Source: Pollenia angustigena
Taxonomy: Eukaryota > Arthropoda > Insecta > Diptera > Polleniidae
Length of the DNA stretch: 64,000 nt
Direction: 5' to 3'
NCBI GenBank assembly: GCA_930367215.1
Contig: OV884057.1
Location: forward strand, 251,188,830 to 251,252,829
The position numbers and the translations under genes are program-made. The notes beneath the pieces were generated by a model. It had not been told where the DNA came from. It saw only the letters and a list, made by a program, of their open reading frames with translations, and searched no databases. Position 1 is the stretch's first letter. The number at the start of each line of letters is the position of its first letter. This document shows, piece by piece, positions 16,889-62,802 of the stretch.

Positions 16889-17160
16889 TGAACTAGAGAT
16901 GACCTAGAGCTGAACTAGAACTAAACTAGAACTGAACTAGAACTGAACTAGAACTGAACTAGAACTGAACTAGAACTGAACTAGAACTGAACTAGAACTG
17001 AACTAGAACTGAACTAGAACTGAACTAGAACTAAACTAGAACTGAACTAGAACTGAACTAGAACTGAACTAGAACTGAACTAGAACTGAACTAGAACTGA
17101 ACTAGAACTGAACTAGAACTGAACTAGAACTGAACTAGAACTGAACTAGAACTGAACTAG

Positions 17161-17163
<3 letters not shown>
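16889..17163. repeat. (TGAACTAGAAC)n minisatellite, left block
   Basis: About 25 near-perfect copies of the 11-bp unit. The block ends ...CTAGAAC at 17163, immediately before the T run that is the complement of the first LINE's poly(A) tail. It is part of one array that continues at 19536-19727 and 27164-27390, split by LINE insertions. Confidence 0.95.
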
Positions 17164-17200
<37 letters not shown>

Positions 17201-17510
17201 GACATTTTTTATTTAACAATTCATATAACAGTAGGTTCCGCAAAGCTTTAAAGCTTGTCTGCAGAGATTACTAGTTGCTAATATTCTTTTAATCGAAAAT
17301 AAGTGGTAAACAAATTTGTTGTAATAAAAAAAAAATGAGAAAAATATATAAAAAGATAAAAAAGAAAAATTATTTACAATTAATATATAAATAAAAAAAA
17401 AAAATAAAATAATAATAAGACTATATTAGTAAATGTTAATAAATATTAAATACTATTTACTAATTAAACTTCAAGATTAATAAATTCAATAATTTTTTCA
17501 CAAATTTTAT

Positions 17511-19535
17511 TTATTGCAAACTTATAAAGTGTTTCTTGATTAGGTGTGTTCTTTTCTTTTCATCTGATGTATTAATTATGTTGGTTGGTAGTAGATTGAG
17601 GATTTTGGGCAAAGTTACAGAAAGAGTACTTCTGCCAAATTCGTTAGAAAAACGGCTTATTTTAAATTTTCCCTGAGCACGTCGTCTGGTGTTGTAGGAA
17701 TGGTCAATTGGCTGTAAAAATCTGTTATCCTGGAAAAACTCTTTGACTATAGTTGAGTAGTAGATATTTTTTACGTTGAGAACGTGCAGGGTTTTTGCAA
17801 GAGAGTTTGTGTGGTTGCCATTACTGTTGTGGTTGGTAGTATGGTTGTTATTTACGATGTTGTTGTTGTTTCCAAAGTTGACATTTCTACAGTTGTTGTT
17901 AGCGATATTATTGTTGTTGTTGCTGATGGTAACATTGTTGCCATTGATAATAACATTGTTGTCGTTGATATGGTTATTGTTATTTGCATTGTGATTGAAG
18001 TTGTTGTTAACGGCTATGTTGTTGCTGTAGATGTAGTTGACGATTCTGCTGTTGTTGTTGGTGTAAATATTGTTGTGTGCAGTATTGTAAACGCTGTTGT
18101 TGTTGCCGCTGTTACTGCGGGAGTTGTTGTTGTTGGGGTATCTGTTATTGTTGATGCTGATGTGCATGTTATTGTTGTTTATGCTGTTATTGTTTAGGTT
18201 GCTGTTATTAATGTTGCTTTCAATGTTATTAAAACGGTGTGTCGGCGCGTAATGGTTTTGTTGTGTTATTGTATTATCAATAATGTTGTTTGTTCGGCAT
18301 GTTGTTTGTAGTTTTTTCAATAAGATTTTTAATATTTGATTTTGTGCTTTTTGGAGTGTTGTGCTATATTTTACGCTCCCCCAAGCTGTAATGCCATGTC
18401 GAATGTAGGACTCCGTAAGCGAAAAATATGCTTGTCGTAGTACGCTGTATGTTGCACAGTGGCTTAAGTGGTAGAGCATGTAGGATGTTGTTCTAAGCTT
18501 TTTTTGCAAGTTTTCTATGTGTACTTTCCATTTAAAACTGTTGTCAACGTAAACTCCGAGATACTTGTATGTTTCAACTTTCTCTATAGTTGTGGAGCAT
18601 GTTTCAACGAAGTTTGTGTTGTTGAGTACTCTGGCATGTAGACAGTCTGTACTGTGAAATAAAAGGTTGATTTGTGAGCTTGGTAGATGACGAGGTTTAA
18701 TGTGCATAATCTTCGTTTTTTTAGCATTGATTATAAGGCCGTTGTCATGACACCACTTTGTTGCGATATTTAACTGATTTTGCATAATTTCTGTTGCATT
18801 TAAAATGTTTTTATCTGCAACAATAACAGCTGTGTCATCTGCATATGCAAAAGTTTCGCAATTTCTTAAATAATTTAGCATATCATTTGCATAAATTATG
18901 TATAAAATTGGTCCCAGCTTAGATCCTTGTGGCACTCCACAGTCGTACTGTACTTCCTTGCTAAGATTGTTGCCTATTTTTACATAATACGATCTGTATT
19001 CCAGATAACTTTTGAACCAATTCAAAATTCTCCCTCTTATGCCATTTCTTTCTAAAACATGCAGGATATTGTTGTGGGAAAGCGTATCGAAGGCTTTACT
19101 AAAGTCTATAAATAATGCCATTACGTGCATATTCTTACTTAAACACTCGTTGATATAGTTTGCAAAGTTTCCTAAAAGCTGGTTGATATTTTTTCCTTTT
19201 TGAAACCCGTATTGATTTTTGTGGATAATTTTGTATTTGTGGAGGAAGTCTGTGAGCCTTCTGACGATGATTTCTTCAAGAACCTTATCAATTACAGAAA
19301 GAATGGCAATTGGTCTATAATTGCTTATTTCTGATTGTGTCCCATTTTTGTAAATTGGCCTAACTATTGAGGTTTTTAATAGATCTGGAACTGTTGAATG
19401 TTCAATGCTTGAATTTACTAGCTTGGTTAAAACCGGTGTTAAATGGCTAGCGTTTAATTTCAAATCTTTCGGTCGGATTTTATCTAGGCCTGGGCCTTTT
19501 TTTTCGTTAAGGGATTTCAATATACCATAAATTTC
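17511..19535 (-). CDS. LINE ORF2 fragment: reverse transcriptase with Asn-rich insertion
   Basis: An open frame of 669 codons (from the Met at 19520; the frame enters from the truncated 5' end at 19535). RT landmarks in order: GPGLDKIRPKD at about residues 9-19, NYRPIAILS at 67-75, FSKAFD at 141-146, GVPQGSKLGP at 195-204, YADD at 226-229, GLIINAKKTK at 261-270 and YKYLGVYVD at 318-326. The fold and the YNTRRR...GRSTLS C-terminal block fit the CR1/jockey group. Residues of about 410-571 are dominated by Asn (NNN runs) and have no counterpart of that size in copy 2. The catalytic YADD is intact. The product could not mobilise itself because the endonuclease is missing. Confidence 0.88.
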   Translation of the reverse strand, partial: EIYGILKSLNEKKGPGLDKIRPKDLKLNASHLTPVLTKLVNSSIEHSTVPDLLKTSIVRPIYKNGTQSEISNYRPIAILSVIDKVLEEIIVRRLTDFLHKYKIIHKNQYGFQKGKNINQLLGNFANYINECLSKNMHVMALFIDFSKAFDTLSHNNILHVLERNGIRGRILNWFKSYLEYRSYYVKIGNNLSKEVQYDCGVPQGSKLGPILYIIYANDMLNYLRNCETFAYADDTAVIVADKNILNATEIMQNQLNIATKWCHDNGLIINAKKTKIMHIKPRHLPSSQINLLFHSTDCLHARVLNNTNFVETCSTTIEKVETYKYLGVYVDNSFKWKVHIENLQKKLRTTSYMLYHLSHCATYSVLRQAYFSLTESYIRHGITAWGSVKYSTTLQKAQNQILKILLKKLQTTCRTNNIIDNTITQQNHYAPTHRFNNIESNINNSNLNNNSINNNNMHISINNNRYPNNNNSRSNSGNNNSVYNTAHNNIYTNNNSRIVNYIYSNNIAVNNNFNHNANNNNHINDNNVIINGNNVTISNNNNNIANNNCRNVNFGNNNNIVNNNHTTNHNSNGNHTNSLAKTLHVLNVKNIYYSTIVKEFFQDNRFLQPIDHSYNTRRRAQGKFKISRFSNEFGRSTLSVTLPKILNLLPTNIINTSDEKKRTHLIKKHFISLQ
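17808..18293 (-). repeat. AAC/AAT codon repeat inside the LINE RT frame
   Basis: On the plus strand this is a long run of GTT/ATT triplets, on the minus strand AAC/AAT codons encoding about 160 mostly Asn residues. The triplet period keeps the frame open and also opens unrelated frames on the plus strand, which I do not regard as genes. Confidence 0.85.
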
Positions 19536-19727
19536 TGAACTGAACTAGAACTGAACTAGAACTGAACTAGAACTGAACTAGAACTGAACTAGAACTGAAC
19601 TAGAACTGAACTAGAACTGAACTAGAACTAGAACTGAACTAGAACTGAACTAGATCTGAGCTAGAACTGAACTAGAACTGAACTAGAACCGAACTAGAAC
19701 TGAACTGAACTAAAACTTAGCTAGAAC
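19536..19727. repeat. (TGAACTAGAAC)n minisatellite, middle block
   Basis: About 17 units, more variable at the right end (TGAACTGAAC, TAAAACTTAG). It separates the two LINE copies. It starts with TGAAC at 19536 and ends with CTAGAAC at 19727, the same phases seen at the outer junctions. Confidence 0.93.
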
Positions 19728-19926
19728 TTTTTTTTTTTTTTCTTCTTTTTTTTTTATTATATATTTAAAATATTTGGATTACAAAAAATTTTCATGATAG
19801 TCCCACGAAGCTATGAGCTTGTCTGCAGGAGATAATGCATAATAATTCTTATAATCTATGTATATTAAAAATAAAAATTTTACATTTCTTTTATGCTTAA
19901 GCTAATTATTTGATATATTAATAACT

Positions 19927-22290
19927 TCATTGCAAATTTATAAAATGGTTTCTAATGAGTTTATTTCTTTTAAGTTCATTTTTGATATTTATTATATTAA
20001 TTGGTATTTTATTGAATACTGTTGTCAATATCACTTGGAGGGTACTTCTTCCATATTCATTGATGTATCTATCGACCCTGTAACGTCCGTGTGCACGTCT
20101 TCTAGTATTTTGGGCATGATCAATTGGCTGCAGAAATCTTGTGTCGTTGTAGAATTCTTTTGTTAATGTGGTGTTGTATATGATTTTCACGTTTAAGAGA
20201 TGTAAGGATTTAGCACCGTTGAATGTTTTATGGTTTGTGTGGTGTATTGCGGGCTGTGAAGCTACGGGATTTAACATGTTGATGTTTGTTATTTGCTGAA
20301 CTACGTTATTATTTGCCTGGTGTTTTTTTTCCACAATATTTTTAATATATTGTCTTGAGTTTTTTGTAAGGTGCTGCTGTACTTTACATTTCCCCACGCT
20401 GCAATACCGTGTCTGATGTATGATTCAGCTAGTGCGTAGTAGGCTTGCAAAAGTACACTATAAGTAGCGCAGTTGCTCAAGTGATAAAGCATGTACGATG
20501 CTTTGCGAAGCTTTATTTGTAGTTGTTCTATGTGTCTCTTCCATTTATAATTTTCATCAACGTATACTCCAAGATATTTATAAACTGGTACTTTTTCTAT
20601 AATAGTTGAACAGGTATCCATTAGATTTGTGCTGTTGATGTTTACTTTATGTATACATTCGGTAGTATGGTATTTTAGTTCAACTGTTGAATTTGTAAAA
20701 TGAGACGGCTTAATGTGCATTATTTTCGTTTTACTAGCGTTTATGATAAGTCCGTTGTCGTGGCTCCATTTTGTTGCAATATCTAATTGCTTTTGCATTA
20801 AATCTTTTGCTTTTGATAAATTTGTGTCTGCAACTACTATGGCGGTGTCGTCTGCATAAGCGAAGGTTTTGCCTTCTTTAATAACTTTCAGCATATCATT
20901 TGCATAAATAATATATATTAACGGTCCCAGCTTAGATCCTTGTGGAACTCCGTAATCGTATGGTATTTTGTTACTTGTTCTGTTATTAATTTTTACGCGA
21001 TACGCTCTACATTCTAAGTAACTTGTGAACCATTTAAGTATGCTACCTCTTATGCCGTTTTTTTTTTCAAGTTTTTCTATTATTTTGGTGTGTGACAACG
21101 TGTCAAACGCTTTGCTGTAGTCGATGTACAGCACTAATACATGCATTTTTTTACTCAAACATCCGTTTATATATGTTGAGAAATTCCCCAAGAGCTTATT
21201 AATATTTTTACCCTTTTGGAAGCCATACTGGGTTTCGTGGATAATTTTATATTTTTGCAGAAAATTTCATATCCTTTTCACTACTACTTCTTCCAATATT
21301 TTGTCTACTACCGATAATATAGCTATTGGCCTGTAGTTATTGAAGTCCGTTTTATTACCGCTTTTATATACCGGTCTTATTAAGGAGGTTTTTAGCAATT
21401 CTGGTACAATTCCATTTTCTAAGCTAGAGAAAATTAGTTTAGTTATTATTGGTGTTAGAACATTTAAGTTCATTATGAGGTCTTTTGGACGTATACCATC
21501 TATCCCTGCTCCTTTGTTTATGTTTAGTGTGTTAATGATACTGTATATTTCTTCTTCACTTGGGTAATCCATATAAATTGTGTTTTGGGTTGCGATTTGT
21601 GTAATGTTTAGTGTTTTAATATTGCATGCGTGTATTATTTTTTTAAAATTTTTACTTAAATTTGTTGCAAAATTGTTCAATACATAATCTATCAGCTATG
21701 TGATGGAAACCGATTTGAAAAACGAAACGATTTGAAACCGAAAATAACGTTTTCAGTATCTTTTAAAATGGATTTTAAATACATATTCCTTTAATTTTCA
21801 GCCATTATTCTTTTAAATGTTATATTATATACGTTAAATGAAGTGTTTTCCGAACGAAAATTCAAGACTATAATACAGAAATGGATTTTAAAATCCCTCG
21901 AAATTCATCACACCTTTTAAAAGCGTTCGTTTTGAAATCGATCGATTTTCATCACATACCTGTATATTTCTGTTTTAAAATTTTTTATTACGACACTGTC
22001 AATGTTTGAACTAGTTTTTCCAATTATCTCATTTAAGAGCTGCCACGTCGCGCGGATATCATTTCTGTTTTCAATAAATTTTTTTTAAAAATAGTTGTTT
22101 TTATAGTATATTATTTTTTTGTTCACAGTATTTCTAAACTTTTTGTATTCTTCTTCGTATCTTTTATTTCTATGATTATTACGCCATTTTTTAAAACGTT
22201 TATCCCTAATATCACAATATTTAACTATGTATTTCATCGTTTATCCATGGGTTAATTGATCTCTTTACACTTGTTTTGTTAATTGTTAAT
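19927..22290 (-). pseudogene. LINE copy 2: linker, reverse transcriptase and C-terminal domain (broken)
   Basis: From 22290 downward the linker region is readable (PWINDEI, then RDKRFKKWR). The RT begins before the MITE at 21693-21962 and continues at 21680 with GAGIDGIRPKDL, NNYRPIAIL, then after a frameshift near 21265 YSKAFDTLSH, GVPQGSKLGP, YADDTAIV and YKYLGVYVDE (frame 21191-20301). A second frameshift near 20350 leads into the C-terminal part (NTRRRAHGRY, EYGRSTLQV), ending at 19927. The Asn-rich insertion of copy 1 is replaced here by a short AN-containing stretch. Confidence 0.85.
21693..21962. mobile_element. 270-bp MITE in LINE copy 2 (CAGCTATGTGATG ends)
   Basis: The left end CAGCTATGTGATGGAAA pairs with the right end TTTTCATCACATACCTG. 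The inner sequence continues the pairing (CGATTTGAAAA / TTTTGAAATCGATCG). It separates the linker from the RT of the LINE. Duplication length is uncertain: TA next to both ends is possible, and CAG...CTG would also suit hAT. Confidence 0.75.
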
Positions 22291-22459
22291 GAGTTTTGTA
22301 TATTTCATTAAAGGTTTCATGTAATTTATTGTAAAGATTATTTGTATTAGATGTTTGATTCATAATTGCGCTCCAATTCGTTTCTTGTATTTTTTATTTA
22401 TTTTGAAATTATTAAACTTTGGCCCCTGTCTAGATATGTTTTCCTTTACCTGACTGTTT

Positions 22460-23627
22460 ATTTCTTTGTTAACACAACAAAAGAGCGAATAGTGAACCGA
22501 TATTGTTGTCATCACTATTGATGTTTGTGCTTGTGTTGCTGTTGTTTTATTAGTTTTTAAAAAGAGATGGTCAATGCATCCCAGCGGGAAAATAAGGAAT
22601 TGATTACATAAATAGCTAAAAAAATAATGTGTTATTTTCGAAAGAATAATAATGCATTCATGGGAATCGAGAAGGTTATTTTATTGACACAATAATTATG
22701 ATTTGATTACCACTTATATTCTCACATTTGCAGAACAAGGAATGTATTGTTTCCATTCGTAAAAATGGTTTTTGTTTTTTCTTCTGTTCGTGACAATTAT
22801 TCGTATTTTTTTAGAATTATTTAAGTCATTCCCAGTATACATTTAAATAATTTATTACAATCCTAGGACATGTACTGTGTTAAGAATAATGAGTTCTGGA
22901 ATCAAATATTTATCAATATATGTATTACATTCTCGTTTCCTATTGATTACATCTTCCCGCTGGGATGTTCTTGCGTTTCTCTTTATATCTTCGCGTGTAC
23001 ATTCGTTTACCATACATTTTAAACCATTACATGTTGTCATATTAAGATATGTTGTTGTTGTGCTGTTTTCTTTTAAGGTATCAATATTAACATCTCCCAC
23101 TAATATTATCTCTTGTTTTTTCTTAATTTTATTTATTATCGTATCTAGTTCACTAATAAACAAGGAAACTCTTTCATGATGGGACGGTAGATGGAAAGTA
23201 TAGATGTAATTTTGTTATTGATATTAACGTCTATTTGAATCGTTTCAAATGATATTGTATTTAAGGAGATTTTACTAAATGTGAGGCTTTCTGCGATATA
23301 TACAGCAATTCCTCCACCTTTGCCTTCTCTGTTAAAGAATACAGAGTTGAAGCCTTGTATACTGTAAAAGGGGGTTTCACTGTCCATTATATTTGTTTCA
23401 ACTAAGACGATGAAATTTATTCTGCTTATTATATTATTAATTGCCGCTAGAAAGGATGAAAAATTTAACCTGAGGGAGCGTATTTTCATATATATTAATG
23501 ATATGGGATAACTTAAGGATTCTTTATTTATCTCATTGAAATTACTAAATATTCGTTTTTGGTTTTTATTCATTTTTTGTTTGTGTTTTCCTTTTTTTTT
23601 TTTTTTTTTTGATAAATATCTATGCAA
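22460..23627 (-). pseudogene. LINE copy 2: ORF2 start and endonuclease domain (broken)
   Basis: The ORF2 frame starts near 23627 and overlaps the end of ORF1. An endonuclease/exonuclease/phosphatase-type domain is recognisable by order: VLVETNI at about 23400, GKGGGIAVYIAES, then in a shifted frame GDVNID (GD(x)N motif), NGLKCMVNECTRE, and, beyond the nested MITE, IDHLFL and ISVHYSLF. In active enzymes the last block reads SDH; here the Asp is Val, so catalysis should be lost. Frameshifts occur near 23160 and around the MITE at 22577-22967. Confidence 0.78.
22577..22967. mobile_element. 391-bp MITE in LINE endonuclease (CATCCCAGCGGGAA ends)
   Basis: CATCCCAGCGGGAA at 22577-22590 and TTCCCGCTGGGATG at 22954-22967 are a perfect 14-bp inverted repeat. 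The LINE endonuclease frame stops making sense at the right end and resumes as IDHLFL at the left, which places both borders. AT-rich interior with no coding potential. Target duplication not resolved. Confidence 0.78.
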
Positions 23628-24465
23628 AATACTAATTGGTTTATTAACTCAATATCAGAAGTGTTATTGATAGTAAATAGTGGGGCATTTTCGTTTTTAC
23701 GGGCAAATATATTTCCATTTCGGACCCAAACAAATTTCCACTTTGCTTCCTTGGCCTTGTTTTTTGCTAGCCATAGAAGGCGTCGCACAGTGCTTTGGCC
23801 CATAGACATAAATCAAAAATAAAAACAAGTCTTATATTGTACTTAAAAATGTACAGATCGATAGATAACAAAATAATTAAAATGAATTTTGAAGAGTTTT
23901 TAAGATTTAACTCTTTTTGGCGGCGCTAGAGGGCGCCAAAGTTTGAGAATTTATAGTAAAAAGGGCCAAACAACTACTTGAGTCTTACATGCTTTAGGAA
24001 AATGTTGTAAAACTATTGTTTTTTAAAGCACGAGATTGAAATTTTTTTCTGTAGTAGTTTACTATATTTAGAACTAACTGTAAAAAAATTTTATTGAATT
24101 ATTTTCTCATAAGTGTTTTTTTATGGGTTTGAAAAATGCTTATTATTTACTTAAGCTCTAAAAATTTCCTAACTTTGATGGAATATTAAAAAAAAAAGAA
24201 AAATACCGTCTATAGGTTTTTTTCTGACTTCGAATATTTAGACTGTTTTATAATAACTACAAGAAAAAAAATTGAAAAAATTTTACCACAACTTGAAAAA
24301 AAATGTATTTAAAAAAAAGCTATTTTCGTGATTTTCGCTCAAATTTTCATATATTGAATTAGTTTAAAAAAAATAAACTAGGAACATAATAAGAAATATT
24401 AAGGTATTAAAGTAGCTTTATGTAATTATAATGAAACGTAACTAATAACTAAAATAAATTTCAGG

Positions 24466-24764
24466 ATGCTTGTCCGAAGAAGCATTGGAAGTCAACCACA
24501 AAATCGTGAGAAAAACCAGACTTTCCCATACGAGAAAAACGTCACGACGACACTCATAAAGATTTAATGACTCATTTAATACATTCCTCAGATCCGTTGT
24601 TATCTTCAAACAGGAATCCAAAGACTAAAAAAAATATATTTTTTGAAGAAGTTGAGAAATATATACTGAGAGAAAATGTACCAGTTAAAGATGACGAAAC
24701 AAATGTTTTGTTGAGCGGCAATATTTTTTTGGAAGAATTCAGTACTGAAGATGATTTATTGTAA
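24466..24764 (+). pseudogene. Transib transposase C-terminal exon (copy A)
   Basis: After AAATTTCAG, a good 3' splice site, an open segment reads GCLSEEALEVNHK, then SHTRKTSRR and LMTHLIHSSDP, with an acidic tail and a stop at 24764. In Transib transposases the motif LSEEALE...R...SR...L..SSDP lies near the C-terminus. It corresponds to the RAG1 segment holding the third catalytic acidic residue (the Glu after the SEGNE-like motif). The exon is a little over 30 codons before the first Met and about 98 codons in total. Upstream exons are absent. The same exon with the same splice acceptor is in copy B. Confidence 0.75.
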
Positions 24765-24854
24765 TTAAAAAATATGAACATACATATGTAAATAATAAAT
24801 AAATTAGTTTAAAGAAAATAAATTAGGAATATAATAAGAAATAAATTCAAATAA

Positions 24855-25505
24855 TTCGTTAGATCGGCTCAGAATCACTTTCTGAGTCGATCTAACGATG
24901 TCCGTCCAACCGGCTGGCGGTCCATGCAACCTTGTGCATACAGATGAAATTTGTCCCAGAGGCTCTGACTGGTACAAGGACCAAGCCTATTAAAAATGGA
25001 ACGAATCGGTCCATAATTTTACAAAAGCCAGCTTGTTACATCGGCAAGATTAAATTTGGTCCAAACCAAACTAATTTTATTGCAATCAAAATCAGCTTAT
25101 CAAATTGTATTAGAATCTTTCTATTTTTCTATTTTATCATTCTCCCGAAAAAGCTTTTAATGCCAGCTTCCTTAAAAATATTAGTATTTACATACAAATT
25201 GGCGACAATGACTTTTACGATAGCTACTAAGTCATGACAAAATGTTGTCCAGATAGGTCCAAAATTAACTGTAGGTTCCATATAAACCCTCATCCAAAAA
25301 ACTCATATACGGAGCTTAAGATATCTAAACAATATTCGGGAGAAAGAACTTTTAAACGAATCTTAACCTCATAACATAATTTTGTTCTGGCGGGTCCATG
25401 ATTGCCCATGGGTCCCAAATAGATTACATTCTAGGAAATTTGTTTTTAAATACTATACTATAGGGTATCACATGGCTTGACCGATTATACTTTCTTACTT
25501 GTTAT
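24855..25505 (-). repeat. Dispersed hairpin-ended repeat nested in Transib copy A
   Basis: On the minus strand it starts AACAAGTAAGAAAGTATAAT and runs through AGGCTTGGTCC, CCTTGTGC and GAAAGTGATTCTGAG to about 24855. The same order of words is found at 36472-37153, so this is an independent repeat family carried inside the Transib copies. Confidence 0.6.
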
Positions 25506-27163
25506 TTTTGCAAGAGCATTTTAAGCGTTTTTAACTCGTTTTTTATTAAATGATGTTTTTGTATTTTTCACATTAATAATCCGATTCTACCAAAATTCGG
25601 CACACATATATATCTAACAAATATCAATTCCCGTACCAAATTTCATTACGATTGGATAATTTTTGAAAGTGTTATAGCATTTTTAAGAAAAAGGATATAT
25701 GGCAGGACCTTGAGTCCTTGTTCAGATGTAAATGAAAATTTGCACAAACGTTGCTAGTTGTGTGTGTATTAGCCAGACCATTTTTTGTAGTTTTGTGGGC
25801 ATTATTGAAGCTAAAATTACATTTTTCCATTTCAGGACACATGGGAGGTAGACGTGTCCTTGAACCGATTTCTCCAAAAAATCATATTTTTCTTAACTAA
25901 GCTATTTTATGCTAGTGTACGAAATTTCAAAAATTTCTGACATCTCCTTCTATTTATGCACTGTGGGTCGGTTACTAAATGTAAGTTGGTCGTTTATGTA
26001 TATAAAGTTGTTATTGTCGCCACTGTCATCATTATTGTTTACAATTTTTGATTCTACTCTATGTTTATTTATTTTGCCCATTAATTCATTCTTTTTACCA
26101 AAAGAGGAGAATTCGACTATTATTTTTTCTTTCTGTTTTTTAAGCGATATGCTTGATTAATATCTCTTACATTGATTTCTACATTAAGAGATGTGCCAAT
26201 TGTTTTGATGACTTCGACAGCAGAGAGTTCTGTATTTGTTATATTTTTTATTTCAATGTTTTGGTTTATCATTTGCTGCTCCAGTTTGTTTATGCGTGCA
26301 TCCAATATGTCTATTTGTTGATCCCTTTTCTTGTCTTTCTCATTGAGTTCTTTTACTTGAGTAACTAGTGTTGTTAAAGTTGTTGTTATTTTACTTAGTG
26401 CGAATTGAGTTTCTTCTTTAATTTGAAGATTTGATGCGTTTATATTTGCTGAGAGTTTTTCCATTGTTTCTTTGACCTCTTTCAGATCTGATTTAAATTC
26501 AGTTACATCCGACTGAAAAGAGTCTAATTTTGTGTTGACAGAGGTCAATGACATTGTCTCTTTATATTTTTTGGCCTGATCTTTCTCTAAATTCTGATCA
26601 TCGTCATCAGTTCGTGCCTTTTTTTTATTGTTTGTTTCATCAAAGACAAATGCTTGGTACATGGTGTTAGGGGATTTGCTTCGTGGTTTGCATATTTGGC
26701 ATTTCCATGACGTTTTTCTCTCACCATACATACTAAGATATGTGCTTTCAGACAACGGAGAACAGGTAGAGAAGTGGTAGTTAGAGTTACAATTGTAACA
26801 CTTAACATTATTTATAGATGTTATTGCTATTTTACAATGGTTGCATATAATTTGATTTGATTGACTAATTTTTTTTCTCTTTTTTTTTTTTTTTGGAACT
26901 CTTGATTTTTTTATAATTTTTTATTGTTTTTCCTTCTCTTTTTTTTCTACACTTTTAATTTTTAATTGAATTTGCAGTTTTTTATTAAAAATTGGTTGTT
27001 TTAAACCAAGTAATTTCTTGATTTATAGGTAGTTCGTTTGGTGGCACTTTGCTTTTTCTTTTTTGTACACTTGATTATTTTAATTTAAAGTTTTAAGGGT
27101 GATTTTGTTTGGCTTTAGGGCACCAGTAGAAAAAACACAACCGTTTGCAACGAAGTTCGGCAC

Positions 27164-27390
27164 TGAGCTAGAACTGAACTAGAACTGAACTAGAACTGAA
27201 CTAGAACTGAACTAGAACTGAACTAGGGCTGAACTAGAACTGAACTAGAACTGAACTAGAACTGAATTAGAACTGAACTAGAACTGAACTAGAACTGAAC
27301 TAGCACTTAACTAGCACTGAACTAGAACTGAACTAGAACTGAACTAGAACTGAACTAGAACTGAACCAGAACTAAACTAGAACTGAACTT
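27164..27390. repeat. (TGAACTAGAAC)n minisatellite, right block
   Basis: About 20 units with scattered substitutions (TAGGGC, TAGCAC, ACCAGAAC). It begins TGAGCTAGAAC directly after the 5' end of LINE copy 2 and decays into unique sequence after 27390. Confidence 0.93.
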
Positions 27391-46264: not shown

Positions 46265-47690
46265 AATTAGTGAAGTATTTTTTTTTATTTATTTATTTAA
46301 AGTCTATGGAATAATCCTTGCAGACTAATTCAAATATACATATTACAAAAGAAATTGAACAGTACAAACATATAATTTAAGACTATCTAATTATTTATTT
46401 ATTTAAATGTAATATGATATCTCTTCTTACGATGTCCAAACTTTTATTAAAATCAATGAACGGATATAATTTATTAAATTCATTACAAATTCTACGAAAT
46501 GGATCAAAGTTGGCATAATTACTGCAATAATATTTGATAGTCAATAAATCATAATTTCTTAGTGACCGATATGGTATATTAATGTCAATTTTACTGAGAA
46601 GAAATTCCGAATTGATGCTACCATTCATCAGTTTCATGAGGAAAGAAACATTTAACATGTGTCTGCGGCTTTTCAATGTAGGAAGCTTAATGAGAGCAAG
46701 ACGATTCTCGTATGATGGTAACTTTTTATTTGGATCCCAACCCAAACCACGAAGACAAAATAGCAAAAATTGAACTTGAACTGATTCAATTTTGTTATAG
46801 TGTACATGATATTGTGGATCCCATACTACAGATCCATATTCAAGAATTGGTCTAACCATTGTAATAAACAATTGTTTTGTTGTGTACGGATCCGAAAACT
46901 CTTTAGCCCATCGTTTAATGAACCCAAATACACCAGTAGCTTTATTAATTGTTAACGAAATGTGACTCTTAAATTCCAATTTTCCATCTAATAGAACGCC
47001 TAGATCGTTGAAACTATCAACCAATTCGAGAGCTGTATTATTCATAACATAGCGGCCATTAATTGGAAATGATCTTGTAAATATCATATATTTGCATTTT
47101 TTAACATTTAGTTCCATTAAATTAATTTTACACCAAGTAGTTAATTGGTTAATGTCATACTGTAAAAGTGATTGTTGATCAGCATTGTTGAAGGAAATAA
47201 AGATTTTTACATCATCGGCATACATAAACATATTTGAGTGTTTAAATACAGATGGAAGATCATTTATAAATAATGTGAATAAAAGCGGTCCTAGGTGACT
47301 ACCTTGAGGTACACCTGATATTACGTTAATATTATTGGAGAAAGAGTTTCGAAACTTAACAGACTGCTTTCTATCCTTTAAATACGAACTCAGCCACTTT
47401 ATGATCGATGTACTAAAGCCCATACGATCGAGTTTAAAAAGTAATAGATCATGATTTACTTTATCAAATGCCTTGCTAAAGTCATTATAAATAACATCTG
47501 TTTGTTTCCTATTGACAAACCCTTCATTTACCCGAGTTGTTAATTCAAGCAGATTTGTAAGTGTAGAACATGATTTGCGGAATCCATGTTGCATTGGAGA
47601 TAAAATAGAGGATACATGATGTGACAGCGTGTTGTATATAAGTTTTTCAAAGTAGCTTAGGAACATTTACGTGAATACATTTTTGGACAC
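46265..47690 (-). mobile_element. 5'-truncated LINE with (TAAA)n tail
   Basis: On the minus strand an RT frame (47666-46395) is followed by a short 3' UTR and a tail of TAAATAAATAAATAAAAAA near 46290-46273. The 5' end falls inside the RT near 47690. The frame is intact over 423 codons, so the insertion is likely recent compared with most elements here. Confidence 0.85.
46395..47666 (-). CDS. LINE reverse transcriptase fragment
   Basis: 423 codons without interruption. Landmarks: QHGFRKSCST at about 26-35, NDFSKAFDKVNH at 61-72, SGVPQGSHLGPLLF at 117-130, YADD at 149-152, ELNVKKCKYM, LGVLLDGKLEFKSHI and the C-terminal RPILEYGSVVWDP, SVQVQFLLFCLRGLGW, LPTLKSRRHML, FRRICNEFN. This is the usual insect jockey/CR1-group RT tail. 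The N-terminal RT motifs, endonuclease and ORF1 are missing, so the first Met is arbitrary and the frame cannot act autonomously. Confidence 0.88.
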   Translation of the reverse strand: MFLSYFEKLIYNTLSHHVSSILSPMQHGFRKSCSTLTNLLELTTRVNEGFVNRKQTDVIYNDFSKAFDKVNHDLLLFKLDRMGFSTSIIKWLSSYLKDRKQSVKFRNSFSNNINVISGVPQGSHLGPLLFTLFINDLPSVFKHSNMFMYADDVKIFISFNNADQQSLLQYDINQLTTWCKINLMELNVKKCKYMIFTRSFPINGRYVMNNTALELVDSFNDLGVLLDGKLEFKSHISLTINKATGVFGFIKRWAKEFSDPYTTKQLFITMVRPILEYGSVVWDPQYHVHYNKIESVQVQFLLFCLRGLGWDPNKKLPSYENRLALIKLPTLKSRRHMLNVSFLMKLMNGSINSEFLLSKIDINIPYRSLRNYDLLTIKYYCSNYANFDPFRRICNEFNKLYPFIDFNKSLDIVRRDIILHLNK

Positions 47691-49470: not shown

Positions 49471-52195
49471 TTAAGTATTTTTAACATTATCTAAGGAATT
49501 TTCTGTAATAGCTGGTTTAAGTCGATCAATTGGTACTGATATTATTTCTCTATCTTTCTCAATCTTAAAACATTTCTTGCCTTTTTCTACGACTTTGTAT
49601 GGCCCCTCATATGGTTGTTGTAAGGATCTTTTATTGTTAACTCGCAGAAATACAAATTTACAGCTATGTAAACTCTTTGGAATATTAAAACCTGATTCAG
49701 AATCCGTATGATGTACAATGTTTGATCTTACATTTTTAAAATGATCTTTTAACTTGAATAAAATATCGGATGCATCGAATTGATTTTCATGAACAACAAT
49801 TTCTCCTGGTATTCGAATATTTTGACCATATGTCATCTCAGCAGGAGTGGTTTTTAAATCCTCTTTATAAGTGGAACGTAGTCCTAGTAGGGCTATTGGA
49901 AGTTCATCGTACCATTTTGATGAATCAGCTCTGCACATTAATGAAGCCTTAATTTGTCTATGAAATCTTTCGATAATACCATAAGCTTGAGGATGATACG
50001 ATGAAGTAGTAATATTATGACTACCCAAAAACTTTGATAATTCCGAAAACATGTACGAAGTGAATTGACTACCTTTGTCTGTGGTTATTTCCAATGGTAC
50101 GCCGAATCTTGAAATGTAATTGCGTATAAGTGTGTCTACTACAGTTTTTGTATTTATATCTCTTAATGGGTATGCCTCGGGCCATCGAGTGAACCGATCT
50201 ATTAAAGTTAGTAGATATCTATAACCATTAGACGGAGGCAGTGGTCCAACAATATCTAAATGTATATGTTCAAAACGACCTTTTGGTATGGGTATTTTAA
50301 TGACAGGAGATTTTGTATGTTTGTGAACTTTGGACTGTTGACAATTTATACACTCTTTTGACCATTGGTTTATTTGCTTACTCATATTTAACCAAAAATA
50401 TTTTCTAGTTATTAAACGTTTTGTTGCACGGGTACCCGGGTGAGAAATACTATGTAATTTTGAAAATACAAGTTTCCTAAGACTTACAGGCACATAGGGT
50501 CTAGTATGATTATGTGATATTTCACACCAAATTTCTGAGTTAATTAGTGGTACTTTTATTAATTTAAGATTACACGATACGTTTCTATTTTCTGTTAAAC
50601 TTTTTATTTCCGAATCGTTTTGTTGTTCCTCGTGTAAAATTCGTAAATTTAATTCACCATCATCTATAATATCAATATCAAAAGGTCTGGAAAGAATATC
50701 GGCAACAACATTAGATTCACCCCTTATATATCGAATATCTGTAGTAAATTGTGCAATATATTCTAGATGTCTAGTCTGTCTTGGACTTCTTTCAGTTTTC
50801 GAATTCATGGCACACGTTAAGGGTTTGTGGTCTGTAAAAACCACAAACGAGCGACCTTCTAATAAATACCTAAAATGCTTAATGTTTAAATAAATAGCAA
50901 GTAATTCCCGATCAAATGAACTGTACTTGATTTCAGCGGGGGTAAGTTTTTTTGAAAAAAAACGCTAACGGTTCAACTTTACCATTTAAAACCTGATGTA
51001 ATACACCCCCCACTGCAATATTCGAAGCATCGACCGTTAAAGTTAATTCTGCATCTTTATTAAAATGATTTAATAATACACGTGATGCAAAATTACTTTT
51101 AATTTCGTTGAAAATCCCAAAAGCGTTATCATCCCATTCTATATTCTTATTTTTGTTCTTAATAGCTTTGTTCATTAGTTCATATAAAATAACAGTTCTG
51201 TCAGCTAATTTTGGTATATAACGATGATAATAATTTATCATTCCCAAGAATTTCTGCATTTGTTTAACAGATATTGGCCTATCAAAATCTCTGATTGCAG
51301 CCACCTTCTCCTCTGAAGGCTTAATGCCTTTCTCTGATAAATGTGACTCAAAAAATCTATATTTTAAACTCCAAAAATGCATTTTCCTGGTTTAATATTT
51401 AAACCATATTCATCCAGTCGTCCAAAAACCTCTTTTAAATGTTCGAAATGCTGTTCCTCGTTTTCGCTAGCTACTAAAACGTCATCGATATAAGCAAAAA
51501 CCAAATCTAATCCTCTAAATACTTCACTTATGAAACGTTGGAATGTTTGAGCTGAGTTTCTTAGACCGAATGGCATTCGCAGGAATTCGAACATACCGAA
51601 AGGCGTAGTTATTGCCGTTTTGTAAACATCTTCCTTAGCCATAGGAATTTGATGATAAGCGCGGATTTAATCTAATTTCGAAAATACTTTCTTATTCCTC
51701 ATGTTTAAATTTAGATCATGAATATGTGGTAATGGAAATCGAGCGGGAACTGTCACAGTGTTAAGGCGTCTAAAATCGCCACAAGGACGCCAATCATTTG
51801 GATCCTTTTTTGGAACAAGATGCAGAGCTGAAGCAACATTAGAGACGGTCTACAAATACCCGATTTAACTAAAAATTCGAATTCTGACCTAGCAACTTCA
51901 TATTTTAATGGATCTAGTCTTCTAGGTTTGGTATATGGTAAAGGGCCTTCAGTAATTAATCTATGCACAGTAGAATGTTTTACAGGCTTTGTATAGTCTG
52001 GTTCAGAAGTTAGTGACGGATATTCTTTTAACAATTTAGTATATCTATTATCAACTGCAAAAAGCTTCGGTAATTATATATAACAAGTAGACGATATTGC
52101 ATCTACTGTTAAATTTGTAAGTGGGTCGATTAGCTGTTTATGCTTGGCATCCACTAATAGACCGTACAGATCACAAATTAAGAGACAATTTGACG
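49471..52195 (-). pseudogene. Ty3/gypsy pol remnant (end of protease, RT, RNase H, integrase)
   Basis: Segments on the minus strand in order: LLVDAKHKQLIDPLT near 52160 (end of the protease region); 52034-51753 with EYPSLTSEPDY and GPLPYTKPRRL (start of RT); 51642-51364 with TPFGMFEFLRMPFGLRN and YIDD (RT core); 51382-50933 (RNase H start, FLGMINYYHRYIP, TVDASNIAVGGVL); 50844-49471 with FTDHKPL, then integrase HHCC (H131, H135, C165, C168) and D197, D256 and E292. Frameshifts lie near 51750, 51370 and 50950, and a stop is in the protease-RT linker. The integrase frame itself is open for 457 codons. Protease, gag and 5' LTR are cut off at 52195 by the next repeat. Confidence 0.9.
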
Positions 52196-53508
52196 AAATT
52201 TGTCACAGAGGCTTTGACTGGTACAAGGACCAAGCCTATTGAAAATGGAGCGAATCGGTCCATAATTTTACAAAAACCATCTTATTACATCGCCAAGATT
52301 TAATTTGGTCGAAACCAAACTAATTTTATTTCAATCAAAATCAGCTTATCAAATTTTATTGGAATCTTTCTATTTTTGAACATAACTCCCATACAAATCA
52401 TTCTCCCGAAAATCGCTTTTAATGGGAGCTTCCTTAAAAATATTAGTATTTACATACAAATTGGCGGCAATGACTTTTACGATAGCTACTATGTCATGAC
52501 AAAATGTTGTCCAGGTAGGTCCAAAATAAAACTTCATAGGAAAGAACTTTTAAACAAATCTTCACCTCATAACATTATTTTGTTCTGGAGGGTCCATGAT
52601 TGCCCAAGTAGATTACACTCTAGGAAATTTGATTACACTCTAGGTTGTTATTTTTGCAAGAGCATTTTAAGCGTTTTTAATTCATTTTTCATTAAATGAT
52701 GTTTTTATATTTTCCACATTATTATGTAGTCCGATTCTACCAAAATTTGGTATGCATATATATCTAACATATATCAATTTCCATACCAAATTTTATAACA
52801 ATTAACAATTTTTGTAAGTGTTGTAGCATTTTTAAGAAAAAGGATATATAGCAGGACCTTGAGTCCTTGTCCAGATTTAAATGAAAATTTACACACACGT
52901 TGCTAGTAGTGTGTGTAACAGTATGACCATTACTTTTGTGGGCATTATTGAAGCTAAAATTAAATTTATCCATTTCAGGACACATGGGAGGCAGGCGTGT
53001 CCTTGGACCGATTTCTCCAAAAATTCATATTTTTCTTAATTAACTAAGCTATTTTTAAAAAATGAGATGATTGTATTTTTTTCTACTGCATTAAAATCTC
53101 AATTTCTAAAAAATGTGGAATTAGAGCCTTTTTATGTTAAGCCAGCGTTATACGATTAAAAATACGTTTTAATATTTTTGCAATTCACACAAGAATTTTG
53201 GATGATTAATATTAAATTAGGCAAAGTTTTTAATAAATATCTGGCATTGTGTATTCCTGGAATTTATTTTAAGCTGAACTAATTTAAAACATTTCCTAAG
53301 GCCAAATTGAGTTGAAATGTATTTAACAAATTTTAAACAAACACCAGCAACCAAAATAAATAAATGCGTAAATGTGTTTTTGTTTTTATTAAAACCAAAA
53401 AGCCAAAAACAAATTACAAATTACTTTAAAAATTGGTAGTGATTATTAAAAACAATTAAAGCTTCATATTGGTGGCAGTGGCGGCGGTTATTGTCTGTTG
53501 TAATGCAA
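52196..53508 (+). repeat. Left arm of a 1.3-kb inverted duplication (Transib-related copy C)
   Basis: From TTGTCACAGAGGCTTTGACT onward the sequence is inverted at 57679-59000 with high similarity along the whole length. Its first 850 bp also match Transib copy A from about 24945 to 25900. Beyond that, both arms share an extra 0.45 kb (through GGTGGCAGTGGCGGCGGTTA) that copy A lacks. The arm joins the gypsy remnant abruptly at about 52195. No transposase sequence lies in this arm. Confidence 0.75.
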
Positions 53509-57678: not shown

Positions 57679-59000
57679 TGCATTACAACAGACAATAACC
57701 GCCGCCACTGCCACCAATATTAAGTTTAAATTGTTTTTAATAATCACTACCAATTTTTAAAGTAATTTGTAATTTGTTTTTGGCTTTTTGGTTTTAATAA
57801 AAACAAAAACACATTTACGCATTTATTTCTTTTGGTTGCTGGTGTTTGTTTAAAATTTGTTAAATACATTTCAACTCAATTTGGCCTTAGGAAATGTTTT
57901 AAATTAGTTCAGCTTAAAATAAATTCCAGGAATACACAATGCCAGATATTTATTATAAACTTTGCCAAATTTAATATTAATTATCCAAAATTCTTGTGTG
58001 AATTGCAAAAATATTGAAACGTATTTTTAATCGTATAACACTGGCTTAACATAAAAAGGCTCTAATTCCACATTTTTTAGAAATTGAGATTTTAATGCAG
58101 TAATGTGCAATAAGTAAAAAACATTGATTTAAATGAAAAAAATACAATCATCTCATTTTTTTAAAAATAGCTTAGTTAAGAAAAATATGAATTTTTGAAG
58201 AAATCGGTCCAAGGACACGCCTGCCTCCCATGTGTCCTGAAATGGAAAAATGTAATTTTAGCTTCAATAATGCCCACAAAACTAATGGTCATACTGTTAC
58301 ACACACTACTAGCAACGTGTGTGTATATTTTCATTTAAATCTGAACAAGGACTCAAGGTCCTGCTATATATCCTTTTTCTTAAAAATGCTACAACACTTA
58401 CAAAAATTGTCTAATTGTTATAAAATTTGGTATGGAAATTGATATATGTTAGATATATATGTATGCCAAATTGGTAGAATCGGATACAAAATAATGAGAA
58501 AAATATAAAAACATCATTTAATGAAAAATGAATTAAAAACGCTTAAAATGCTCTTGCAAAAATAACAAGTAAGAAAGTATAATCGGTCAAGACCGACCAT
58601 GTGACCCAGAGTGTAATCAAATTTCCTAGAGTGTAATCTACTTGGGCAATCATGGACCCTCCAGAACAAAATAATGTTATGAGGTTAAGATTCGTTTAAA
58701 AGTTCTTTCCTATGAAGGTTTATTTTGGACCTACCTGGACAACATTTTGTCATGACTAATATTTTTAAGGAAGCTCCCATTAAAAGCGATTTTCGGGAGA
58801 ATGATTTGTATGGGAACTATGTTCAAAAATTGAAAGATTCCAATAAAATTTGATAAGCTGATTTTGATTGAAATAAAATTAGTTTGGTTTCGACCAAATT
58901 AAATCTTGCCGATGTAATAAGATGGTTTTTGTAAAATTATGGACCGATTCGCTCCATTTTCAATAGGCTTGGTCCTTGTACCAGTCAAAGCCTCTGTGAC
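57679..59000 (-). repeat. Right arm of the 1.3-kb inverted duplication
   Basis: Inverse of 52196-53508, beginning ATAACCGCCGCCACTGCCAC at about 57695 and ending AAAGCCTCTGTGACAAGG near 59003. The arms are about 4.2 kb apart. This arm continues into Transib copy B, whereas the left arm stops at the gypsy remnant. Confidence 0.8.
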
Positions 59001-59117
59001 AAGGTTGCATGGGACAGAAAGTGATTCTGAGCCGATCTAACGAATTATTTGAATTTATTTCTTATTATATTCCTAATTTATTTTCTTTAAACTAATTTAT
59101 TTATTATTTACATATGT

Positions 59118-59395
59118 ATGTTCATATTTTTTAATTACAATAAATCATCTACAGTACTGGATTTTTCCACAAAAAAAAAATTGCCGCTCATTTCTCAATT
59201 TCTTCAAAAACTGTATTTTTTTAAGTCTTTGGATTCCTTTTTGAAGACAACAACGGATCTGAGGAAAGTATTAAATGAGTCATTAAATCTTTATGAGTGT
59301 CTCTTCTTGACGTTTTTCTCGTATGGGACAGTCTTGTTTTTCTCACGATTTTGTGGTTGGCTTCCAATGCTTCTTCGGACAAGCACCCTGAAATT
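59118..59395 (-). pseudogene. Transib transposase C-terminal exon (copy B)
   Basis: On the minus strand, after AAATTTCAGG: LSEEALEANHK, SHTRKTSRRDTHK and LMTHLILSSDPLLSS, then a stop replaces the acidic tail and about 40 codons are degraded. It differs from copy A by a handful of substitutions and keeps the same splice-acceptor-like start. Confidence 0.75.
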
Positions 59396-60027
59396 TATTT
59401 TAGTTATTTTCAACGTTTCATTATAATTTCAAAAAGTCACTTTAATACCTTAATATATCTTATTATATTCCTAGTTCATTTTTTTTTTAAACTAATTCAA
59501 TCTTTGAAAATTTGAGCAAAAATCACGAAAATAGGATTTTTTAAATACATTTTTTTTCAAGTTGTGGTAAATTTTTTTAATTGTTTTTCTTGTAGTTATT
59601 AGAAAACAGTCTAAATATTCGAAATCAAAAAAAAAACCCATAGACGATATTTTTTTTTTTTTTAATATTCCATCAAAGTTAAGAAATTTTTAGAGCTTAA
59701 GTAAATAATAAGCATTTTTCAAACCATTTCAAAAATATGTATAGGAGAATAATTCAGCTAAAAATTATTCATAGTTGATTTAAAATATAGTTAGCTGTTA
59801 CAGAAAAAAATTTCAATCTCATAATACAGAAAATGAATTTTTTACAATTATTTTCTTGAAACAATAAAAAACCAAGGGCATTTGTGATTTCAGCGCCCTC
59901 TTATGCCGTAAAATGCAGACAAACACAAGCAATTTTTTATACAGATTTTGATTTTTGTTTTATTTTATTGAACGGTATAAGTTTGAATTTATATTTCACA
60001 GTATTTGTAGTTTATTGTCTTTTAAAC

Positions 60028-61309: not shown

Positions 61310-61687
61310 CTTTTAAGCTCCTGAAAACTATGAAAATTTAAGCAAAAATCATGAAAATAGCCATTTTGAAAAAAAAAATTTTTTTCGAGTTGTGGTAAAA
61401 TTTTTTTAATTGATTTTCTTGGAGTTATTAGAAAACAGTCTAAATGTTCGAAATCAGAAAAAAACCCATAGACGATATTTTTCGTTTTTTTTTATATTCC
61501 ATCAAAGTTAAGAAATTTTTAGAGCAAGCATTTTTCAAACCAATAAAAAAAAAACACTTATGAGAAAATAATTCAATAAAATTTTTATACAGTTAGTTCT
61601 AAATATAGTAAACTACTACAGAAAAAATCTCGTGCTTAAAAAAACAACAGTTTTCCTGAAGCATGTAAAACTCAAGTAGTTGTTGAG

Positions 61688-62632: not shown

Positions 62633-62802
62633 TTGTTGAGCAATTTTTACTTTAAATTCTCAAACTTTGGCGTTAAATCTTAAAAATTCTTCAAAATTCA
62701 TTTTAATTATTTTGTTATCTATCGATCTGTACATTTTTAAGTACAATATAAGACTTGTTTTTTTTTATTATTTATGTCTATGGGCCACAGCACTGTGCGT
62801 CG

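Follow-up and report, generated by a model that had tools for sequence, protein, structure and literature searches.

The locus examined here, part of a 64,000-nucleotide stretch of the genome of the fly Pollenia angustigena that we call the window, raises the question of how two different LINEs came to lie in one 11-bp minisatellite, (TGAACTAGAAC)n: whether they inserted into arrays that were already present, and with what specificity, or whether the repeat travelled with the elements. The original prediction, of an undescribed target-specific family with a satellite as its niche, started from the embedding of both LINEs in the repeat in the same orientation, and this description was borne out, with two minus-strand LINEs lying between three plus-strand arrays, as follows.

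16889-17163, plus strand: (TGAACTAGAAC)n array, 25 units.
17164-19536, minus strand: LINE-A, 5'-truncated inside the RT domain (RVT_1, E 1.2e-41).
17164-17193, minus strand: poly(A) tail of LINE-A, 30 A.
17511-19536, minus strand: end of LINE-A ORF2.
19537-19727, plus strand: (TGAACTAGAAC)n array of about 16-17 units, with higher variability.
19728-27161, minus strand: LINE-B, extending to its own 5' end, frameshifted and carrying a foreign insert.
19728 to about 19757, minus strand: tail of LINE-B.
19927-23648, minus strand: LINE-B ORF2, broken into pieces.
23145-23648 and 22855-23214, minus strand: endonuclease pieces of LINE-B ORF2.
21267-21695 and 20301-21266, minus strand: RT pieces of LINE-B ORF2.
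19927-20424, minus strand: C-terminus of LINE-B ORF2.
26120-26920, minus strand: N-terminal part of LINE-B ORF1, with a PHD-type Cys/His pattern, a coiled coil and an RRM-like stretch.
23570-23785, minus strand: C-terminal part of LINE-B ORF1, baculovirus-FP-like, severed by the insert (recognised by eye against P0128).
23786-25965, minus strand: DNA-transposon-like insert of 2.18 kb inside LINE-B ORF1, ends CACAGTG / CACTGTG, flanks CGACC and CGACG.
27162-27390, plus strand: (TGAACTAGAAC)n array of about 20 units.

The three arrays contain 57 of the 59 matches to the unit at one mismatch or fewer, the mean for shuffled sequence being 1.13. The RTs of LINE-A and LINE-B are 68-69% identical over 300 residues, and in a FastTree tree that contains close relatives only they are weakly supported sisters (0.69), 0.46 substitutions per site apart. 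No in-frame ATG was found ahead of the PHD part of LINE-B ORF1. The ends and flanks of the insert in LINE-B recall the rules of Transib elements, and we take it to be Transib-like; pieces 80-89% similar to it lie at 52192-53055, 58164-59863, 61311-61684 and 62633-62802 of the window. A long asparagine-rich linker joins the RT to the C-terminus in LINE-A ORF2 (17813-18240) and occurs also in a Lucilia cuprina relative, P0072. Both LINEs have kept a 3' UTR hairpin, CTGCAGACAAGC...AGCTT (17194-17330 and 19760-19870), possibly an RT recognition element, of which only the LINE-B version folds better than shuffled sequence (2 of 200 shuffles as good, against 43 of 200 for LINE-A).

Whether the association extends beyond the window was read from the 3' flanks of related copies in the 1.37-Gb genome, ranked by RT similarity and not by flank. 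A search with LINE-A ORF2 returned at least 66 copies, 65 of which were examined (30 loci and 35 fetched stretches), and 18 of the 57 that were readable have the array directly 3' of the tail. The LINE-B family comprises 15 other copies (86-97% identity), of which 13 were fetched and 12 were readable; 5 of these 12 lie in the array, or 6 of 13 with LINE-B itself. Overall, (TGAACTAGAAC)n adjoins the 3' end of 24 of 70 readable copies, and, when the two window copies are set aside, of 22 of 68. These counts exclude nine copies with unreadable 3' ends (L008, L012, L019, L063, L067, L084, L093, L095 and L148) and leave out C3:169439656 from the LINE-A search and C2:230011442 and C1:26531278 from the LINE-B search; L141 was scored as outside despite a short degenerate array-like sequence at its 3' side, L140 was scored as inside although its tail lies beyond the stretch, and L080 and L096, both outside arrays, have a common flank and are perhaps one insertion. 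A 62-bp 3' piece resembling family D, with a tail of 8 A, also lies within an array (L113:714-790) and stands outside the counts; short pieces of this kind escape ORF-based searches, and true array insertions are therefore under-counted.

The repeat itself is rare. The genome holds 8,242 exact 27-mers of it and none of a reversed control, which gives an estimated share of about 245 kb, or about 0.018% of 1.37 Gb; the calibration used 15,909 bp of array stretches, mostly adjoining LINEs, with 535 27-mers, and an estimate from exact 27-mers under-counts degenerate arrays. On this estimate the array is in excess at LINE 3' ends by about 1,800-fold, a figure that would fall to about 320-fold were the array 0.1% of the genome, and P against the genome share is about 4e-49 even at 0.1%. 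The preference for the minisatellite is thus real and strong, yet neither strict nor single-phase. The satellite niche that had been proposed is a true insertion niche, and it is the strict one-phase specificity attached to it that falls away: a majority of copies outside the repeat had been named as the finding that would count against a target-specific family, and 46 of the 70 readable copies do lie outside. As to the repeat elsewhere, an array of about 1.6 kb free of LINEs (L033, G000:C1:7349269-7352295) has GTAAGT-like and TTTTAACAG-like flanks and is perhaps an array in an intron; the only match in a search of genome contigs, about three TGAACTAGAAC units in an Acidobacteria contig (L001:1205-1231), was taken as coincidence, and viral contigs searched with the repeat and with P0001 gave no matches.

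The junctions are not random, and they do not share one phase. Both poly(A) tails in the window adjoin ...CTAGAAC, at 17163/17164 and 19727/19728, just as had been described, but the claim that all four junctions lie at one phase, improbably by chance, does not hold: the 5' junctions are two bases apart, the array restarting as GAAC/TGAAC at 19537 after LINE-A and as AC/TGAGC at 27162 after LINE-B, and agreement of the two 3' phases, with its 1/11 chance, is weak evidence by itself. Among 23 3' junctions in the genome, the sequence after the tail, in the sense of the LINE, is CTAGAAC in 8, GTTCTAG in 7 (including LINE-B), GTTCAG in 3, CTGAAC in 3, GAACTGAA in 1 and odd in 1 (L065); four LINE-B-family junctions were read by eye, and a mismatch is present in some of them. 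Single-phase targeting is rejected on these counts, since at least five positions are used, on both strands, with the array in one orientation at 13 junctions and in the other at 10. At 22 of the 23 junctions, the exception being L065, the array can contribute an A to the poly(A) tail, a pattern with a chance of about 4e-6 under uniform placement in a test framed post hoc. Both strands are used, as is each of the five (C/T)T steps in the unit; because all junctions but L065 fall at A-offering positions, the nick probably lies at or beside a (C/T)T step.

What the data show is insertion into existing arrays, in both orientations, at frequencies that depend on the family and at restricted junction positions. 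We suggest, with a probability of roughly 0.65, that one group of APE-type, poly(A)-tailed LINEs, comprising several young families, inserts by target-primed reverse transcription, and that several of these families have a strong, though not exclusive, affinity for (TGAACTAGAAC)n arrays already in place. The LINE would putatively be recruited to the entire array, through its DNA shape, its chromatin or a protein bound to it, and a permissive endonuclease would then nick at a (C/T)T step, the terminal T of which would pair with the poly(A) tail and prime reverse transcription. The closest competing account, which we regard as possible but unlikely, dispenses with recruitment and has the APE domain recognise a short motif of the unit, for example around CTAG or GAACT, more loosely than telomere-repeat LINEs recognise theirs. 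Such a loose motif fits the data nearly as well as recruitment: junction positions are few, two of them accounting for 15 of 23, and one family C copy (L028, G000:C4:11962879-11967879) sits in another 11-bp array that contains CTAG, (GACTATGACTA)n, with 45 copies at 99% in 500 bp. Against it, the same near-identical families also insert outside arrays, and the spread of junctions over every one of the five (C/T)T steps, on either strand and in varied contexts, tips the balance slightly towards recruitment. The (GACTATGACTA)n unit is, like the main repeat, a 6+5 composite with CTAG; another copy, L090, has an (ACTATT)n microsatellite 17 bp away.

Were the arrays hotspots for insertions of every kind, as fragile or open DNA might be, several LINEs per array would be expected. 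The window shows this, and inspection by eye adds L016 and L022, the arrays of which each hold a second LINE of a different family. The hotspot explanation is improbable, given the differences among families and the absence of the array from an unrelated control LINE. With families defined by eye from identity and pre-tail sequence, array shares are 4/9 for A, 8/10 for B2, 2/14 for C, 3/7 for D and 1/6 for F (B2 versus C, P 0.003), and no array copies occur in E (0/5), G (0/3) or the others (0/3), the sister families E and G speaking against a general hotspot on small numbers. Most copies of A, B2 and C, in and out of arrays, are nearly identical in a FastTree tree from which LINE-A is absent and in which the match taken from locus L002 is LINE-B's own RT, and this near-identity indicates that the insertions are young. 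The unrelated control LINE, also in the window (46395-47666), with 27-34% identity to the LINE-A/LINE-B group, an open RT part of 423 aa, an AAAT-type tail and about 100 matches in the genome, was found with the array in none of 20 copies, a small sample of elements whose AAAT-repeat tail differs from the poly(A) of the group. This sample was drawn from the first 24 of the 100 matches, minus the window's own copy and three in which the match ended early, and a shortened 3' UTR in L123 leaves 19 clear cases; Fisher P against the control is 0.001 for 24/70 and 0.002 for 22/68.

That arrays preceded the LINEs is apparent at the locus itself. In its own sense, LINE-B has GTTCTAGCTCAGT before its 5' end and GTTCTAGCTAAGT after its tail, equal at 12 of 13 bp, and this duplication rests on a variant unit, AGCTAGAAC, present in 3 of 60 units, two of which are the units that flank LINE-B (chance about 0.002, computed post hoc). 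LINE-A has lost its 5' part and still has the array on its 5' side, so that the array there is target and not element. Together, the duplication and the array on both sides of a truncated copy indicate that the array was present first and that insertion of the LINEs came second. In the genome, 17 array copies were inspected at the 5' side, and in 11 of them the array continues there without a change of orientation, L013 being counted among them with its exact junction beyond the fetched stretch; the 5' array was not fully seen in the other six, with only 19 bp in L015 and none in L006, L070, L072, L073 and L076, for which the fetched stretch may end short of the LINE 5' end. Target duplications of 11-15 bp can be fitted in L003, L007, L014 and L016; the fits in L022, L027 and L068 are ambiguous or weaker, and L065 and L094 give no clear fit. 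One by one, such fits within a periodic array are weak, and that of LINE-B is the telling case.

An array that forms part of the element, as 5' UTR monomers or as a 3' transduction, is ruled out by 5'-truncated copies flanked by array on both sides. The first five C1 arrays also count against it: no LINE was recognised in four of them in the stretch read (by tblastn for L032, L033 and L061 and by tails or eye for the rest), the array of L115 continuing past the end of its stretch; the fifth, L113, is the one with the 62-bp piece. The same four arrays, and the sharing of array and orientation on both sides by copies with differing 5' truncations, disfavour the alternative attached to the original prediction, that the minisatellite spread together with LINE ends. 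We consider it very improbable that the repeat moved with the LINEs or that recombination copied LINE-plus-array blocks between arrays; arrays recombine easily, some hold several LINEs, and the pair L080/L096 looks like a duplicated block, but array copies do not agree in where their junctions lie, in orientation, in the length of the tail or in the point of truncation.

The affiliation of the group was judged from ORF1. ORF2 combines APE and RT (RVT_1 in both LINEs; an APE-type domain through the similarity of LINE-B to P0005 and P0013), and its RT matches in the PDB are confined to R2, L1 and bacterial RTs. The PHD-type ORF1 that had been predicted was recovered by eye as C4HC3-type spacing in P0003, P0044 and P0128, the Pfam PHD match being weak (E 1.2); ORF1 also has a coiled coil, an RRM-like stretch and, in the relative P0128, a Baculo_FP_2nd end (E 4e-19). 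The named relatives come from calyptrate flies, those of ORF1 from Calliphora vicina and Lucilia and those of ORF2 from Haematobia, Stomoxys and Lucilia. Full-length copies (L097-L105) have a common 5' motif like TTGCGAACGGACGTGTTTTT, which is reminiscent of the downstream promoter element that jockey-type LINEs carry in Drosophila. No CCHC knuckle was matched in P0003 or P0128, which sets them apart from the ORF1 type of the Jockey lineage, to which Jockey-3 belongs. According to the available text of PMC4120745, a PHD-bearing ORF1 is restricted, within the Jockey superfamily, to the CR1 and L2 lineages (types IC, IIB, IIC and III), and the Jockey lineage has a single PHD-free type with an RRM and three CCHC knuckles. 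Given that distribution, ORF1 with its PHD-type cysteine pattern and baculovirus-FP-like end, rather than an RT tree, would place the group on the CR1/L2 side of that superfamily. The APE-plus-RT ORF2 agrees with CR1/L2 elements, as would a PHD finger in ORF1, the RRM-like/FP-like end of which probably resembles type IIC; the poly(A) tails differ, and the text available of PMC4120745 describes no such target preference. No CR1/L2-side element with a minisatellite as its target was found in the literature on minisatellite- or satellite-targeting LINEs, in which subscription papers were scarcely covered, and among the papers listed for six of the 22 possible rotations of the repeat unit none concerns a satellite by title or abstract.

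TRAS/SART-type LINEs are known for high specificity to one site. Like them, the present group consists of APE-type LINEs that lie in short tandem repeats with several families per array; unlike them, it uses both orientations and several positions and has 46 of 70 copies outside the array. Strict single-site specificity of that kind, which the equal 3' phase of the two window copies and the 8/10 of family B2 might suggest, can be dismissed almost entirely on these figures. Nearly all copies of a strictly target-specific LINE would lie in the target, as against 24 of 70 here, and one orientation and one position per unit would be used, as against 13 versus 10 and at least five; the group therefore acts in part as a repeat-targeting LINE, failing these two features of the strict type. 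In the available text of PMC4640811, TRAS, SART and other R1-clade LINEs are named in telomeric repeats or microsatellites, most target-specific families are placed in the early-branched, Tx1 and R1 groups, and HERO and Togen, which insert into microsatellites, carry a restriction-like endonuclease. HERO and Togen likewise prefer simple tandem repeats, in the case of HERO in some families only, and differ, as far as that text goes, in endonuclease type and LINE branch. Jockey-3 (G2) is, from what is accessible of PMC6516634 and PMC11620609, another fly LINE enriched in satellite-rich DNA, associated with Drosophila centromeres and not, as here, with a dispersed 11-bp minisatellite.

In summary, target choice by APE-type LINEs has mostly been described as strict (R1, Tx1) or loose, and here young relatives in one genome differ in their use of one rare repeat from 8/10 to 0/5 of copies. 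Such a spread among near relatives implies that swaps of the endonuclease or of ORF1 could reveal the part that sets the target. Tentatively, and at less than even odds, we propose that LINE families of the CR1/L2 side have acquired a homing tendency, graded from 0 to 80%, towards a single dispersed 11-bp minisatellite through recruitment to the array and not through one cut site, that array chromatin may be read by the PHD-type ORF1, and that the arrays may serve as shared safe havens in which families reside side by side, the dispersed minisatellite thus being a common landing zone for LINEs.
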